Assembly: GCA_016758965.1 (NCBI GenBank)
Contig: JAEPRB010000141.1
Location: 1 to 64,000 of the forward strand
Direction: 5' to 3'
Origin: Circinella minor
Taxonomy: Eukaryota; Mucoromycota; Mucoromycetes; Mucorales; Lichtheimiaceae
DNA length: 64,000 nt
The position numbers were made by a program, and so were the translations under genes. Of this stretch, positions 54,725 to 63,792 are shown in pieces. How positions within the stretch are numbered: position 1 is the stretch's first letter; every line of letters begins with the position of its first letter. The notes under the pieces were generated by a model. It did no database searches, was not told the origin of the DNA, and was given only the letters and a program-made list of their open reading frames with translations.

Positions 54725-55660
54725 GGTCGTATATTTTTATATGTAGCATGAAAAAAGAGGAGAGCGGAAAACGCAGCAACTAAAGCAGAGTTTGAAAAAA
54801 TAAGGCAAGTTGGGGATCACAGGGAGTCGGGTCTGAAGTGCCTGGGCCCAAAAATTAGCGAATCAATTTTCGAGATAGTCTCTGAAACAATGTGAGACAA
54901 CCTATCAAATTCTGAGATAGTCTCTTTTGTACTACGCGAAAAAGCGCATGCTTTTCATACTCCTCTCTTTTTGCATGACAATTGATAATGTCAAAATAAA
55001 AAGGCTCCTGTCACTTTATTTCTTTTTCCTTTTGTTTTTTACTTTTTTTAACAAAAAAGAATACCGGAAGCCCATTTAGATTTAAGACCAAGCCAAAAGA
55101 AAGAAAAAAGGGTGGTGTTAATCCAGACGGTGGGAGACATAAAAAGCAAGTAGCAGGCCAAACATTCCTAAATTTTGGATCAACTCTAACCATCCATTGA
55201 TCATCAAGAAACGAGTAATTCCACTTTTAACATGGTTCGTTAAAAAAAAATTAATAAATATCGTGATCAAACAGTAGAAGGTGATAGTATTGATTATGTA
55301 TAGGCCCCAATTATCATTGAGTATTTTGAGAAGTTACAAAATCGTATTGTTGAGGATGGCAAGTAAGGACCACGAGAATATAGTCAAAAGCATAGTACGT
55401 ATCTCTCAGAATTAACCACATAAGCAAGAGATGAAAATTATTGCCAGCGATATACTTTTATAAATAGGCGTGTATAAAAAAGTATTTAAAAACATAATCA
55501 TAATTTGGAAAAAGAATCAATGTGTGATCAGTAAAGAAGATTGTTTATTTACAGCTATATACAGTAGGTATATTATACAAATATTATTTACAAAAGGACT
55601 ACAGTACTATAAAGTATTAAAAATACTTGTATCGTGGCAAAGAAGACCTGACTATTATAA
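54725..55660. other. Intergenic: VPS34 promoter and BRCT gene 3' flank
   Basis: About 935 bp. The VPS34 side (54740-55200) is less AT-rich and holds a repeated palindrome (listed separately). Around 55256-55420 a plus-strand frame with two stops reads KYRDQTVEGDSIDYV, stop, APIIIEYFEKLQNRIVEDGK, stop, GPREYSQKHSTYLSELT. This looks like a decayed coding segment of unknown family. Confidence 0.45.
54872..54925. promoter_or_regulatory. Two copies of palindromic GAGATAGTCTC upstream of VPS34
   Basis: GAGATAGTCTCT occurs at 54872-54883 and again at 54914-54925, start-to-start distance 42 bp (about four helical turns). Each copy is an inverted repeat, GAGA-TAG-TCTC. They lie about 150-200 bp upstream of the VPS34 start codon. 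Paired palindromes at helical spacing suggest a dimeric DNA-binding protein. The factor is unknown. Confidence 0.45.
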
Positions 55661-57812
55661 CTATTCTACTACGAATTGATCCAGTTGCTTCATACTTTGT
55701 CGTAATGATGTTATAATAACCACATCCTTGTTATAGACTCTGTAACCCATTCTACGTAATCGAGATTTTTCAACTTGATTGATCGGATCTATAATCACTA
55801 AATTACAAGAGTTGGAGTGATCCAATTCTTTAATCTTCTTCATCATCTAAGAATACCCCCAACAATAACAACTGGATATTAGATTTGACTTGATGTAGAC
55901 TAGTGAAAATCTTATTTCACATTATATTTCTACTTACTTGACCTCCAGCTGATCTTACAATCTGTTCCAAGGTGATTCTTTCGCTGTTTGATCCTAAAAA
56001 ATAAATTTTATAACCTTGAAATAAAGTTCCTGTTTTGCTTGGTGGATCAGTTGCTTGTCGACCTTTACGAGCTTCTTCAAGGCTATCTCGAAGATTAAAC
56101 ATTTGTTCTCTTTCGACTATTTCATCAACGAGAGGGAATTCATCGGGGTCCAATAACTTCCCATCTTTAATTGATGCATCCAGCCATTTTTTTGTTGTAA
56201 TCTTCAATCCCAAGTTGACGGCAGATAAAAATTTGACTGTTCGTAATATATTTCCATTTGTAATAAGATGAGTGGCCTTGTATACATCTTCAGTTAAGGT
56301 AACATTTAATTTCTGAATTTCCTATGAACGTATATCAAGAAGCCAGTGAGCTTATCCGTGATCAAAATATAATACATCTACACTATATATATGTGTATGT
56401 GTGTATTCTTGGGGGCAGTTGACCTTTTTTATACCAGTAAGACTTTCGGTAAAGCCTGTGAACAACAAGGTAGCTGCTTTTGATCTTTTGCTTCGTCTTG
56501 CTTTAAAAGATGATGGTAATGATGGATTATTGATACCAACAGAAAGAGATGCTAATAAAGTGGCAGAAGTTACAGTAGATGAATTAATATTAGAGCTTTC
56601 TGTTGATGTAGTAGCGGTAACGGCTTTTGTTGTCGTTCCGGTCGCTGTAGCAGTTGTAGCAGTTGTAGCAGTTGTTGTAGGTGTAGCAGCTGTTGTAGTT
56701 GTTATTGCTGATAATGGTTGTCCTTCAGGAATATGTCCTTTTTGACGTGTGGGTTGTCTTATTTGAATCTTTTTATTATTGCTGGTATCAGAAGTCGATA
56801 TTGTTAATTTGGTATATTCTCGAATGTATTTGTTGGATACTAAATTCTTCCAATTCTTTTTAGAATGTTCAACGCATTTTGGTGATTTTTCATTTTTTTT
56901 GTACCAGCGGTTAATTATTGTTGTGTCAATAGCCGCAGGAGAAATTTGTGTTTCTTGAAAATTAATGTACTTCTCCCGACATGGTTGATGAATAATCCAG
57001 TTGTTGAAACAATCTTCCAAAAACTTGTAATTCACTACGCATACATTCATGTTAATTGCTCGTCTATACTGGTCGCTTTGATTACTATTATCGTAATATC
57101 ATATATTGGTAAAAAAAAAAAAAAAACGAGAGTTACATTATGGTACAATCAGCCCCCTTATAATATTTATTTCTATTACCTTTTGAAGATGGCATAATCG
57201 ACTTCAGGACAAATAAAAGGACAAAACACAAAGCCAATCGCATATCCAATATACTTTACATATTGACGTTCCATCCCCAAAAATTCTTCGACACTAAAGG
57301 TCTATAAATACTATATTATTTATTGTATTCACATATCCTCTTCTGTATGTACCAATTGTTATTTTTTAGAGAAAACTTACTTTATTATGTGAGCCTGGTA
57401 CTGCACCAATTGGTAAAGGATAGTCCATAATGGTCATAGTTGGATCGTGGAACTTTTCTCGATAGCTGGTATTGATAAGCCATTGTTTATTTGCAACATA
57501 CTTATTATGCAATCCAGCCAAGCGATACTCATCTTGAGAACGGTTTTCAACAACTGCAATTGTCACATTGTTTTTCTCATATTTTGTTGTTATTTTTGCT
57601 CCAGCATTCAGTATATGACTTAAGGCTTCTTCTTCTGTTTTCGTCAATGAAGACTTCATAGTAGATGATAAAAATAAAACATGATTTTTCATGTATTGTG
57701 CTTTGGGCTGAACATTGATGATTTTGATAAACTTTGAACTATCGTGAAACTGTGAACCTTGCAAAGGATATATCGGTGGGTTACCGACTGGGTCATAAAG
57801 ATCGATTGTCAT
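55661..57812 (-). CDS. Multi-BRCT domain protein (Brc1/Rtt107/PTIP-like)
   Basis: Five exons: 57812-57381, 57301-57180, 57063-56424, 56321-55938 and 55846-55661, about 587 residues. BRCT domains bind phosphopeptides such as gamma-H2A at DNA damage. The N-terminal part has a BRCT-like unit (KNHVLFLSST…ILNAGAKIT…NKQWLINTSYRE, about 38-125) and a second one split by introns (YVKYIGYAIG…VCVVNYKFLEDCFNNW). A linker very rich in Thr/Ala and basic residues follows. A C-terminal tandem pair comes last: LLFTGFTESLTGIKK…ATHLIT…GLKITTKKWLDASIKDG and FQGYKIYFLGSN…IVRSAGGQ. The donor of the third intron is GTCAAC, weaker than usual, but it restores the BRCT core (GIKKEIQKLNVTLTEDV). Order and tandem C-terminal BRCTs point to the Brc1/Rtt107/PTIP group. 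The gene is head-to-head with the Fanzor-type gene. Confidence 0.8.
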
Positions 57813-58147
57813 CTTTATATGTACAACAGAAAAAGGTAAAGAAAAGCTAAAGTCAAAATAATGAGGAAAGAAAATTAAATATCAGTTGATGAATATTGAT
57901 CCCATTAATACGTACTTATTTATTTCTCATAAAAAATATACTATATATAATATATTAATGTTCTTTATATTGTGCCTCTATGTAATAATGATTTTTTATT
58001 GGCTCAAAAATGATAAAAATCTGTGTTTGAGATCCATCTATCAGTTTTTAGTTTTATTCTTGACAATAATCCTATCGTATATTCTACACTTTTCTTCTTT
58101 ATTCTTTTTTTTTTACATCTTTTTATATTATCGTTAAATTATAAAAT
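57813..58147. promoter_or_regulatory. Shared divergent promoter, BRCT gene and Fanzor-type gene
   Basis: Only 335 bp separate the two start codons. The sequence is AT-rich with T-rich tracts before the plus-strand start (58081-58130). No obvious inverted terminal repeat or target-site duplication could be recognised by eye. Confidence 0.5.
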
Positions 58148-61100
58148 ATGGCTAGAACGTTTGAAGTTGGATATGATCCTATGGCTGTTGATGATCCAGC
58201 TAACAAGAAAGTTACCCCGAATGTGACGATTAATATGAGCCAAGGTAATTTAAAAGAAAAAAATGGGCTTTTTTTTTTGCTCTTGATAAAATCATCACTT
58301 TGGGTGAAAGACAGTGCATCTTATAAATAAAATTATACATATTACTAGATTATTTGAACCTAGCTATAAATCCTCAAGCTGCATGTACGTTAGAAAGTTC
58401 CCCAGATGATGACTATATTATATATGAGCGAGTTTATCAAGCAGCACGAGGAAAGCCTATCGGTCCTGGCTCAAATAATAAAGCAATCAAATGGTTGAAA
58501 GAACATTACTTAGAGCTGTCTAAAGAAGAAACCAATAATAATGCCGCCCATATTTGCAAAATCATAAATAATATAACAATGGAAAATCGTGCGGTACAAA
58601 TTTGTTTTAGTAACGGTACTTCAAGAACTATCAAAGGCCTCCTTGCTCTTGTTGGATTGGCACATTTTTATCAAGTAAAAATTTTTTTATTCTCTACAAA
58701 AAAAAAGCCAATTGTTATAACCCCATCCGCCCATTATTCTGTCATTGGCGTGTTACACAGCATTGATTTACAATATAATACCAGTATTTACATGCCACTA
58801 CAACTCACTGATCGACAATTTGTTCGCCCCGATGTACCATCAAGACCTACATCACCATCAACATCACCATCATTATCATTGACCCGCGCAGCTCATTTTC
58901 GAGAAGAAGGTGAAAGAAAACCAAAAAAGTCATCACGTGGATCTCTAAATGTCTCCAAGGATGAATTGTTAGACATTATTTTAAATCATATGTAAGCTTT
59001 CTTTTTACTTATAACTCATATGTACCTTTTTTTCTCCGACTTGTACTAATGATATAACTACATATATATATATATATATATATAAACCCGATAGCGATTA
59101 CTCTGTAAAATTATGTTATCACGATAATGTGATTAGTGGAAGAATGACAAATGAGGATTTAAAAAAACAACGCCCATCACTCAGTAGTAGTCGACTGCCT
59201 GGTCATTTTTGGGATGATTTAGCAAAATATTTTATAAGTAATCATGGTGTCAATCCAACCATTGATGGTAACGCTGTTAGAAATCGATCGTTGTTTCTCA
59301 ATTATAGATGGTCTGATATTTGGGAAGAAGAACTTAAAAAAATCATTGATCGTGCACCTGTCTCGATCTTGGAATCGATGGATGTTGATTACACTATAAT
59401 TTTGCCAAGCCCTAGTGAGCAACAACATGACGTAAATGAAACTTTTGAAGCAGTAAGTTACGTTTTAAATCGATAAACCATATGTTTCTTTTTGGAAAAC
59501 ATGAATAAAGAAACCAACCAGCTAATATACATATATGATATATTTATTAGTTGGATGAAGATGGCAGCACAGCATTGGGAACTGACTCCCAAGAAGGAGA
59601 GTTAACTGAATCTGAAGAGTTATCTGGAAAAGATAATAATAATAATGATAATAAAGAACAAGAACAGGATAACGAAGATTTTGAAATGATTGTAGATGAC
59701 GCTTGTATTTTCAGGACTTAAAAGATGAACAGGTAATTTCTTTCTTTCCCACGCTCATATTAAACAATCAAATTTAAATGATTTGTATCAAATAACCAAG
59801 TATTATAATTTTTCACTGACCTAGATTATACGAAATGCAATTATATCAGAGAAGCTAGTAAAAGAAAAAGTTTTTAAAACCGTTTGTACTTCTCTACACC
59901 ATGCTCTCCGTGAAGATATCAGTTATACTTTTTTCTGTACTCGCTTGGAACAACAACAAAGAAAATGTTCCAAAGAAATATCAAAAATATTTGAAATTAG
60001 TAGCGAATTAACTATGATGGTATGTTTATATGATTTTACAGTTCTTAACCTAAAATAATGCATCTTTTTCAAAATCCTTTATTATAATTACTTATTCCAT
60101 CTTCTTCTCCAATACCCTTTACTCCACTTTTTTTTATACAAACAAGCTCGTCCAAGGAGAATTAGCAAGAATATACGGTGACACAAATGGAACAGTCGAA
60201 TTCAAAGTGGAATCATGGATCCCTTCAAAATTCAACAAAGCACAAGATAATCAATCTTATAGCGTTTGGATACCGAACTCCTTGATTGTGAAAAAGTTCC
60301 AAAAATCCAAATGCTTATCATACGACTATTTCTCCCAGGCTTCTACAGTAGTACTAGGCAGAAAAAACTCCAAGAATAAATCAAAGTATGTATTATAATT
60401 TTTAAGCAACTAGTTGATCTTACTAAAGAGGATCGTACGGATTATTAATTATATATATTGTTCGATTTTTCGTATAGTGAATGGATAGCTACTATGGAAA
60501 AAATTAAAGAACGTGTTTCAGTTCCCGATATTGAAAATTTTGTACATAATCAACCCTTTAAGGATGCTTTAGTCAATACCACCACTGCTATAACAAATAT
60601 GTGGTCACGAAAGAGATTAACCCATGATCTTAGAGTTTTGATCCGTGTATTATTAAGAGTACGGCTTCGTCCTGAAAAGTTTTCACGATATATCGAATAT
60701 CGCACATCAAAAAAGAAGGCAAAGAATGATGGTGACAATGATGATGCAAAGAGTAAAAACGATCAAGACTCAAGTAACGTGAAGAATGATCGAACTTGGT
60801 ATTCCAAAAATAAGTTCATCTGTGATGAACTTGGTGAAAAACTCCAATCAACAGATCCAAACAAGCAAGCAATTGCAATGAAGTTATTCCAAAGATTAGT
60901 TGTGAGTAATAACCCAACAGATAATACATCAACAACTGTTTCTGTCAGTAACATTGACCAAGGTGATGATCTGGAAGATATTGAAGATCTTGATTTTGAC
61001 GACGATGATGAAGACGAGCAGGAACATACCAACCTTCTTGTCAAAAGCGATGAAAACAACAGTTCATCATCACCAAAAGCAACAGAGTTACAAAATGAAA

Positions 61101-63391
61101 AAAAAGAGTCTACATCCAGAACGATCCGAAGTTTAGTAGCCGTTGTCACCACCCTGGTAAAGTCTTCCGATACCGGGCATGAAATCGAGGCATCTGATGT
61201 CAAGAAATTAGTATATTCTTCAAGTACTATTGGTGACCATGAACTAGCTGCAGCAGCTGAAGTTATCAATCTGTTGCGACCTTATGTACCCAAATCATCC
61301 AAAGGTCAGGACCCTGACTGTAGCATGTTCACATTAGCACCTCTTGCATTTATTACCATCACAGTCTTGCGCGCTGTCGGTTTACCAAAACAGGCATGGG
61401 AAATGAGTCATAAAGCAGAAGATGTGATTGCTTTACCATTGTCGGCGAGAGCCTTGTATGAACTATTTTCTAATTATTATACAATTTACCACCGTGACGA
61501 GACCCCAATCACATCACACGCAGAAGCAGGAAAAAATCAAAAGGAAACGATTGGTGGTTTTTTCGATATACAAATAATTGACAAAATATGCAAAAAGCAC
61601 CATTTACAACCTTTATGGTCTATGAAGTTTGTCAATCGCTATACAATTCAATGGCTCAGTTACAAGGTAATTTCATCCTCAAACGCAGCGTCACCTACAC
61701 AGTCAACAGATACAAAGCGACGACAACAAAAAAAATCATTAAATGATAATGAAAAAGAGCAACTTCAGGAAGAAATTAGTAAAGTTAAAACAGAAGTTAA
61801 TGATCTGAGAAAGGAGCTGAAGCCTGCCAACAAGAATCATGCAGAAGCATGTAAAGAACGCATGACACGTCGTGTGGCGCATAATAATAGCTGGAAACGT
61901 ATCAAGAGTTTACGTGCCGCTGGCGTACTTCCTGATACAGAACTTTTTGAGATTAAAGAAACCCAATGGAATGCTGTAAAAGATAGTAAGAAGAAGGCTG
62001 ACGAATGTCGTGATGAAGCGTATAAAGTCAGTAATGAATTACGTTGCAAGAATTCACAATTATATCAACTGGAAAAGCAGCTGCATGGTCAATCATTACC
62101 ACCACTAAAACCTCTTGTTGTAAGTAACTTTTATAATTCAATATTTATATGTTTTGTTTCCAAGTGATATTGTTTAATAATATGATACATGTCTGTGCTT
62201 ATTATCATTTAGGACAAATCATTATTAAAGGAATTTGATCTCCATGATCCCAAAACATTTATATCTTCAAGTGATCCTGGGTTGGTTGTTACTACTTGTA
62301 CAATAGGAACGACATCTAAGCAGTACTTGGATGTTATAAATAACTATAAAAACTTGTATACGTTGTTGGAATGTGAAGATACAAGTTATGAAATGGATAT
62401 TGATGCAGAAGAAGAAGGAAATATGGATGTACCAGGATCTTCCAATATTATCGTAGCACCAAGTCAATCGTCAATATTATCTCCTGCGTCATCATCAGCA
62501 TCATTGTTGTCATTACCTTACTTACTAAAGCGTGTGACTAATAACACCCCGCAAAGCATGGATAGTAAAACCCTGTCAAAAAAAAATAGATGGAAACGAG
62601 AGCGTAAAAAGAGGAAAAAAGAGGAAATAAGCCGTGACAGCTTAAATCGTGACCAAAAAACCAGAAGTTTGCTAGATAAATTAGCCCATAAAAAGCTTGT
62701 TGCCAAGATACGACGTGAAATGGTGAACGGGGTTAAGAATGCCAAGGTGATTCATAGTTTTGGTGCTTGGAAGCTAAGGTATATTATTGTTTATCTTGCT
62801 GTACTATATAATAATTATGTACACAATCACTTATTAAAGAAAAATTATATCTTTTAGGAATTCTCCAATAAAAGGGCACAGAAGAAGAAGTAGTAAGAAA
62901 GTTCAAGCCGCAGCAAAACAATGTGAACATGATAAAGTAATTGAAGTCGACGAGTACCTCAGTTCCACTGTCTGCCCATACTGTTTTCAAAGGCTATCCA
63001 ATCACATATATCGAAGAAATGACAAATTGGTCAAGGTTAATGGTGCCAAAACTTGTAACAATCCTCATTGTCCAAGTCGTACTACCAATAGTACAACTAT
63101 GACTCGCGATGCTATTGGGGCGTTTAATATTGGCTTAATTACCATCTCATCTCTTCTCTCGACTACCGGAGAACCCATATTCCCTTTCTCCCGTACAAGC
63201 TCAAAAAATATCAAGTACACAAGACAAGATCTTGACAATATTTTCAATACTGCTATGCCTCCGAGTGGTAATTATTGCTCTTTTTAATTAGTGTTTATGT
63301 ATCATAAATGATAAAAGCAAACTAATATAATTTTTATCATATAGACGGATCAGTACAGCACCGACACGAAGTCCGACTGGGAAGTAACTAG
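58148..63391 (+). CDS. Large Fanzor/TnpB-type RNA-guided nuclease-like protein
   Basis: Eleven coding blocks: 58148-58244, 58349-58991, 59095-59452, 59551-59732 (contains a frame problem), 59825-60019, 60147-60385, 60478-62119, 62213-62778, 62858-63267 and 63345-63391. With the 59.7-kb block read as two exons this gives about 1451 residues. The C-terminal third carries a split RuvC nuclease. RuvC-I is SSSDPGLVVTTC (Asp about 1132), and a candidate RuvC-II strand is VIHSFGAWKLR. VIEVDEYLSSTVCPYC follows, with a zinc ribbon of two Cys pairs (CPYC … CNNPHC) and RuvC-III TRDAIGAFNIG (Asp about 1384). This is the OrfB/TnpB C-terminal layout found in eukaryotic Fanzor proteins, which cut DNA guided by an omega-RNA. 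The ~1100 residues before it have acidic and coiled-coil parts (about 61720-62090) and a basic NLS-like KKNRWKRERKKRKK. Their fold is not recognised. The ending PPSDGSVQHRHEVRLGSN assumes the last intron is spliced; unspliced, the stop is at 63287. Confidence 0.75.
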
Positions 63392-63792
63392 GTGAGACAC
63401 GATTTTTTTTTACTTTTATTATTCACTTTCTTCGTTTACTAAAGCCCAGATATTTTATTATAGCCCACAGGGACAGAAGAATTTAAATGACGAAATTTTA
63501 GAAAAGATAATTTTCTTTATTCATTTTGAGGATATTCATAAGATAAAAAACTAATAATAGTAATAATAATAATAATAAAATAAATGATGATAAGACTGAT
63601 AAGTTTATATAATAATATTAACCAGAAGAAAGAATGTTGATATTTGTTGTTGTTTACTCAAGTGAATAAAATTTGAGTGATATGATGACTACGTATACAC
63701 AATATTGAAAATGAGACATCTCATTCAGTTTACATATGCTAAATGCTGTGGAAACAAAAAATATGCTATATATCAATATGTCATTATCAAAC
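63392..63792. other. 3' flank of the Fanzor-type gene
   Basis: About 400 bp, AT-rich, with a (TAA)n run at 63555-63580. It separates convergent stops. If an omega-RNA is made as in TnpB and Fanzor loci, it would be expected around the gene 3' end into this region. No structure is obvious by eye. Confidence 0.5.

Follow-up and report, generated by a model that had tools for sequence, protein, structure and literature searches.

A probable non-autonomous transposon of Circinella minor that carries a predicted Fanzor1 nuclease gene and a BRCT gene

Is the intron-rich, Fanzor-type nuclease gene on a contig of the fungus Circinella minor a domesticated host gene, or is it the cargo of a mobile element? 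The question was raised by a 64,000-nucleotide stretch of DNA (contig JAEPRB010000141.1 of assembly GCA_016758965.1, positions 1 to 64,000; hereafter the window), for which an initial annotation had delimited the feature as the gene alone and had favored long residence or domestication, on the grounds of its many introns and of an adjacent BRCT repair gene. We find that this gene and the BRCT gene both lie within one mobile element, which extends well beyond the start originally given. We consider it likely that the element is a non-autonomous DNA transposon of C. minor, descended from elements that encode a DUF6729 protein, in which most of that gene has been replaced by Fanzor1 and BRCT cargo. 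The features are listed in Table 1. The window copy is designated C141, and the other C-numbers denote contigs of the same genome; P0001 is the C. minor protein INT45_000655, and P0002, P0003 and P0004 are proteins of Circinella umbellata.

The limits of the element emerge from a comparison of its copies, which diverge sharply outside both ends. The left end recurs on eight other contigs (C16, C256, C505, C124, C485, C197, C359 and C167), at the same first base or three bases earlier, and the right end on four (C377, C178, C16 and C215); C41 and C36, whose matches begin 17-18 bases inside, were not scored as left ends. The ends form a degenerate 22-bp inverted repeat in register, composed of GGC, 13 bases and CTGGGC. 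Both of the copies that have their two ends on a single contig are bordered by a perfect 8-bp duplication, CACAGGGA in C141 and CAAACGCC in C16. The sequence CAACTTGT flanks the C256 element on the left and the C178 element on the right, each at a contig end, and these two are therefore probably the halves of one copy. The C16 copy matches the window at 97% over positions 54828-57918 (through the BRCT gene) and then jumps to 62805-63467 at 89%. The left and right parts resemble the window to different degrees in both C16 (97/89%) and C256/C178 (86-91/96%), as would result from recombination or conversion between copies.

The Fanzor protein yields at least 56 exon-sized matches in its own genome, distributed over 17 contigs (the window's included), many of them with stops; this count, like that for the transposase-like protein below, is a lower bound. 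Between C141 and C377 the introns and exons are equally alike (90.0 vs 89.2%). The introns are present in C377 as well, and therefore travel with the element as DNA. The copy at C377:20365-21796 contains Fanzor only, with a transporter-like open reading frame (ORF; recognized by eye) upstream in place of the BRCT gene.

The source of mobility is suggested by the ends themselves. The left 431 bp of the element are common to C124 (86% identity) and C485 (85%), and are followed by 135 bp at 88 and 87%, respectively. The sequence in C124 that matches this 135-bp relic sits in an ORF that continues into the DUF6729 match, and the gene downstream of the common left part codes for DUF6729 and 3'-5' exonuclease (DNA_pol_A_exo1) domains; its counterpart in C485 is 97% identical. 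This transposase-like protein, which from its context is the presumptive transposase, has at least 71 matches in the genome. At the right side, the matches at nine further places of the DUF6729 family stop within bases 548-561 of a 601-base query. Of five such ends that were read, four are GCCCAGAYATGTCACAYGGGCC and the fifth deviates in its final bases; the right ends of the Fanzor elements in C141, C377 and C178 are GCCCAGAYATTTTATTWTAGCC, in register, with a deviation at the first base in C16 and more extensive deviation in C215. The right end of C124 likewise bears a homologous 22-bp repeat. The common ends and the relic of the DUF6729 gene therefore argue that the window element is a non-autonomous derivative with new cargo. 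It resembles the DUF6729/DNA_pol_A_exo1 elements in both ends and differs from them in that they encode the presumptive transposase; neither Fanzor nor BRCT matches on C124 or C485 occur among the matches listed. The C124 region (113000-119600) is itself a DNA element in which a single protein combines the DUF6729 and 3'-5' exonuclease domains.

Table 1. Coordinates of the element and of its components in the window
Feature	Position	Strand	Remarks
Entire mobile element	54826-63465		8640 bp; left end common to 8 other places, right end to 4
Left target site duplication copy, 8 bp, CACAGGGA	54818-54825		GAT directly before (GWTCA motif)
Right target site duplication copy, CACAGGGA	63466-63473		Matches left copy perfectly
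Left terminal repeat	54826-54847	+	In register with right repeat; first bases in the window GTC, not GGC
Right terminal repeat, GCCCAGATATTTTATTATAGCC	63444-63465	+	Terminal-repeat comparison
Relic, 5' part of DUF6729-type presumptive transposase gene	55264-55398	+	88% identical to C124:118679-118545
BRCT gene	55661-57812	-	5 exons (57381-57812, 57180-57301, 56424-57084, 55938-56321, 55661-55846); 594 aa, open frame
Gene assigned to Fanzor1	58148-63391	+	10 exons by GT-AG introns; 1451 aa if read across frame loss near 59.71 kb
Frame-loss stretch of Fanzor gene	59692-59714	+	Relative to C. umbellata P0002 and copy C377
RuvC-I aspartate D1132 codon (SSSDPG)	62273-62275	+	Motif
Rearranged RuvC-II glutamate E1332 codon (VDEYLSST)	62952-62954	+	Aligned to SpuFz1 E541
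C4 zinc ribbon (CPYC...CNNPHC)	62973-63071	+	Motif
RuvC-III aspartate D1384 codon (RDAIGAFNIG)	63108-63110	+	Aligned to SpuFz1 D606

The nuclease gene is assigned to Fanzor1, a relative of the CRISPR nucleases, because a profile of its C-terminus matches the solved Fanzor1 proteins, with the catalytic glutamate and the third aspartate aligned. This profile (A3) consisted of the window C-terminus and four diverged relatives from the same genome, and contained no canonical Fanzor; the relatives were chosen from 12 other matched places, of which C147, C377, C16, C1, C104, C204, C93 and C102 were omitted as near-copies, broken or weak. Against the whole PDB, A3 recovered SpuFz1 of Spizellomyces (8gkh; E = 2.7e-6) and PpFz1 of Parasitella (9cf0; E = 0.0047). 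Fanzor1 chains alone fell below E 0.01, and the other two chains listed were at E 0.58 and 1.3. When the canonical protein of C441 was added (profile A2), the values for the Spizellomyces and Parasitella Fanzor1 proteins became 5.5e-11 and 5.6e-7, and Cas12f chains also appeared (0.002). The Glu of VDEYLSST and the Asp of RDAIGAFN align with SpuFz1 residues that lie 65 apart (counted by eye on the alignment), the catalytic residues of SpuFz1 being E541 and D606 in the available part of PMC10432273. D1132 was assigned by motif only, and the same Asp is found in a relative on C5.

The motif order reported by the initial annotation (RuvC-I, zinc ribbon and RuvC-III) was borne out, as was the Fanzor-type assignment. 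The protein fits the Fanzor1 pattern D-X(125,275)-[TS][TS]-X-X-C4 ribbon-X(5,50)-RD given in the accessible text of Bao and Jurka 2013 (PMC3627910), with D1132 followed by 202 residues, SS, the C4 ribbon, 11 residues and R1383-D1384; using that source and ribbon spacings set by the analyst, the pattern was recovered in none of 2000 whole-protein shuffles. Pfam PF07282 alone gave E 0.032 on the window protein and did not reach its cut-off. The NCBIfam scan of the protein gave nothing useful, a single-sequence PDB search with P0002 did not find Fanzor, and protein searches for broader Fanzor relatives returned only two Circinella proteins, one of them the window gene itself. Compared with SpuFz1 and PpFz1, the window protein shares the RuvC motifs with the rearranged glutamate, the C4 ribbon and the RD pair. 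It differs in being about 550 residues longer at its N-terminus and in being detectable by profile and not by single sequence; its RuvC fold is predicted from this homology.

Two further loci of the genome bear on the family. C441 (846-1250, minus strand) codes for the C-terminus of a different, canonical-looking Fanzor1, with PF07282 above cut-off (E 2.9e-9). C5:224952-227216 contains a diverged Fanzor relative (32-47% identity) that is stop-free in the matched exons and has kept the catalytic residues; it adjoins a ribosomal-protein-like ORF (by eye), and may represent an intact lineage.

The window gene itself has a start codon and a stop codon at the limits given in Table 1 and nine GT-AG introns of 77-127 nt, in agreement with the earlier count of at least nine. 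The earlier length of about 1450 residues stands if the protein is read across the loss of frame, where it comes to 1451; the frame is nevertheless broken, and the exons joined as found produce stops from exon 4 onward unless 23 nt are omitted. A true 23-nt intron at this position was rejected, since P0002 of C. umbellata (1434 aa; 92% identity over the 552 residues compared) runs uninterrupted across the same stretch. Moreover, the sole gap column between the window and C377 in exon 4 falls in that stretch, on the window row. The read-through in P0002 together with this lone gap indicates that the break is peculiar to the window copy, whether as a true loss of frame or as an error of assembly; the Fanzor gene of this copy is probably dead. 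The corresponding NCBI entry (P0001) comprises only the last 882 residues. A Pfam scan of the N-terminal ~550 residues returned no match; portions of them match further loci of the same genome (C30, C129 and C44), and this region therefore belongs to the family.

The second cargo gene, on the opposite strand, codes for a protein with Pfam matches above cut-off to BRCT (4.5e-15), RTT107_BRCT_5 (8.5e-14), BRCT_2 (1.6e-13) and PTCB-BRCT (1.9e-7). Its nearest solved chains are MDC1, PTIP, Brc1 and Mdb1, which are readers of phosphorylated H2A. The window protein retains the LFTG and RTVK positions of MDC1, which we take to be phosphate-binding; C117 has N in place of the K. On another contig (C153:27297-30844) lies the host gene of this BRCT type, the ortholog of C. 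umbellata P0004. The element protein is colinear with P0004, aligning to residues 224-476 (28%) and 689-895 (63%); since the main alignment starts at residue 224, it lacks the complete set of N-terminal BRCT domains present in the host ortholog. By these comparisons the BRCT gene is a shorter relative of the host's Rtt107/PTIP-type gene. It shares with the Rtt107/Brc1/PTIP/MDC1 scaffolds the C-terminal tandem BRCT and the two MDC1 positions, and departs from them in lacking ~220 residues at the start of the host type and in being transposon-encoded. Over the C-terminal region, the two species' host genes share 97% identity, compared with 78% between the window protein and the host type. P0003 of C. 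umbellata lies closer to the window type (82%) than to the host type (63%); the element type therefore probably arose before C. minor and C. umbellata diverged.

A single mobile element may therefore encode, as far as can be judged from sequence, both a cutter of DNA and a reader of broken DNA, and the firmness of the pair needs to be weighed. BRCT matches occur on 10 contigs, of which C153 carries the host gene and C41 a weak match. Fanzor sequence adjoins BRCT at four loci (C141, C16, C256 and C117); in this survey of adjacency C505 stops within the BRCT gene, and the neighbors of C10 and C13 were outside its range. At C117 both genes are truncated, and their identity to the window is 78% and 74% for BRCT and 46% for Fanzor, a divergence which suggests that the pairing is probably old.

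The strongest rival, to which we give a substantial though less than even chance, holds that the BRCT gene is a chance passenger, i.e., a piece of host DNA that was once picked up, and that the pair has no joint function. The BRCT copies of C16, C36, C256 and C505 contain stops, and copies with only one of the two genes exist. The ratios of nonsynonymous to synonymous transitions at G/C sites are below 1 in all seven comparisons, but only moderately so (0.41 and 0.67 for Fanzor in two comparisons, 0.36-0.72 for BRCT in five); at A/T sites they are 0.60-0.72 for Fanzor and 0.74-1.41 for BRCT, exceeding 1 for C16 and C117. Such ratios are compatible with constraint followed by decay, and are not proof of it. 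Countering the passenger explanation, all five exons (594 codons) of the window BRCT gene read in an open frame, the strongly diverged C117 pair has kept its two genes side by side, with a stop-free BRCT part, and a BRCT protein of the element type occurs in C. umbellata (P0003).

The transposon reading can also be set beside published elements. Fanzor1 transposons of Mucorales as such have been known since 2013, and several of the Fanzor carriers lack a transposase, according to the accessible portion of PMC3627910. Relative to the elements ROr-4, PBl-3, MCi-4 and MCi-2 as described there, the present one has 8-bp duplications and DUF6729-like ends. It also carries a BRCT gene, and that portion makes no mention of BRCT. 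In MCi-2 the 3' Fanzor part is constant and the 5' parts vary, as is the case for C141 and C377. Our literature searches, which left most subscription journals outside, returned no paper on DUF6729, none that pairs Fanzor with Mucoromycota, and neither a Fanzor-BRCT or TnpB-BRCT pair nor a captured host BRCT gene in a transposon; the part of PMC12818731 available, on a Rhizopus BRCT protein, mentions neither Fanzor nor TnpB.

The following course can be envisaged. In a DUF6729/exonuclease element most of the gene has probably been swapped for two divergent cargo genes, Fanzor1 and BRCT. The nuclease, directed by a right-end omega-RNA, would cut the site vacated by excision, or a sister or allele that lacks the element, and repair from the copy that has it would restore or spread the element. 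These nuclease and omega-RNA steps are drawn by analogy from the biology of TnpB and Fanzor, the cut-and-repair part following the available text of PMC10432273. The BRCT protein might in turn bind phosphorylated H2A at the break and aid repair by copying, a step that is more weakly inferred. In its fullest form this would be a two-part homing device, in which a captured host gamma-H2A reader biases repair of the nuclease's cut toward copying, and in which a GWTCA motif is the target-adjacent motif (TAM) that confines the insertions of BRCT-carrying copies; we regard this full form as unlikely.

The motif concerned, GWTCA, is present at all four BRCT carriers whose left flank could be read (C141, C16, C256 and C505) and at none of the five other left ends (C124, C485, C197, C167 and C359), so that the insertion sites of the DUF6729 elements on C124 and C485 are without it. 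Where a duplication is seen, the CA of the motif forms its first bases. Among random quartets of 13-base window sites, 82 of 200,000 had at least four invariant columns, as do the four BRCT-carrier sites, the motif itself having been picked post hoc after inspection of the sites. A TAM would be expected at that place, and GWTCA is therefore a candidate TAM predicted for the nuclease. Alternatively, it may reflect the target preference of the transposase; the Fanzor copies C377 and C215, comparable on the right side only, have no CA at the start of that flank, which speaks against the motif as such.

A number of observations weigh against the picture as a whole or against its parts. No intact transposase is tied to the window copy, which has only the relic of one, and in C124, the sole DUF6729 copy with both ends read, the flanking 8-mers differ and no duplication is recognizable. 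The gap in identity between C178 (right end) and C256 (left part) implies that, were they one copy, it would be mosaic, as C16 is. C377, at least, shows no constraint, its exons being as diverged as its introns. C36 has a BRCT gene without an adjacent Fanzor match, C377 has Fanzor without BRCT, and BRCT is absent from the stretch read around the C5 Fanzor. The A/T-site ratios of BRCT reach 1.18 (C16) and 1.41 (C117), and the C117 BRCT is about equally near to the window type (73%) and the host type (71%). The AlphaFold2 model of P0001, from a two-row alignment, gave no usable fold, with a pLDDT (predicted local distance difference test) score of 38.8. As for an omega-RNA, the fold energy of the right end is not unusual (z +1.15 and 0.28 in the window, 0.38 in C377), a search of it against Rfam gave one match (E 0.86) far under the gathering score, and its covariation term is -0.58. 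Conservation of the right end was rejected as a sign of an omega-RNA, because the identity of the introns is about equally high.

The domestication favored at the outset, i.e., a stable, single-copy host Fanzor beside a host repair gene, is now very improbable. The many introns, and the C. umbellata relative with its 92% identity, would suit it. Nevertheless, the gene belongs to a multi-copy family with broken copies, its introns recur in C377, its own frame is lost in the window, and the element has defined ends and a perfect 8-bp duplication. The distance of 335 bp to the BRCT gene was correctly reported (57812 vs 58148), but that gene is not a host neighbor: it lies inside the same element, the host gene being located on C153. 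Finally, that the repeated unit is a product of segmental duplication or ectopic recombination rather than a transposon would account for the unequal segments of C16 and C256/C178, as in recombined copies, but we reject it as scarcely credible, contradicted by copies that start and stop at the same bases, by their different 8-bp duplications and by an end common to the DUF6729 elements.

Outside the element, positions 3252-50952 of the window contain ordinary-looking host genes as judged by eye (Spt5-like, myosin, RRM proteins, TBC, F-box and nitronate monooxygenase).

A partner of Fanzor from the repair machinery would offer a concrete hypothesis for the use of Fanzor to a transposon, namely to cut and then to steer the repair. 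The insertion sites would in addition provide a testable TAM (GWTCA), together with a defined, multi-copy element for its study.

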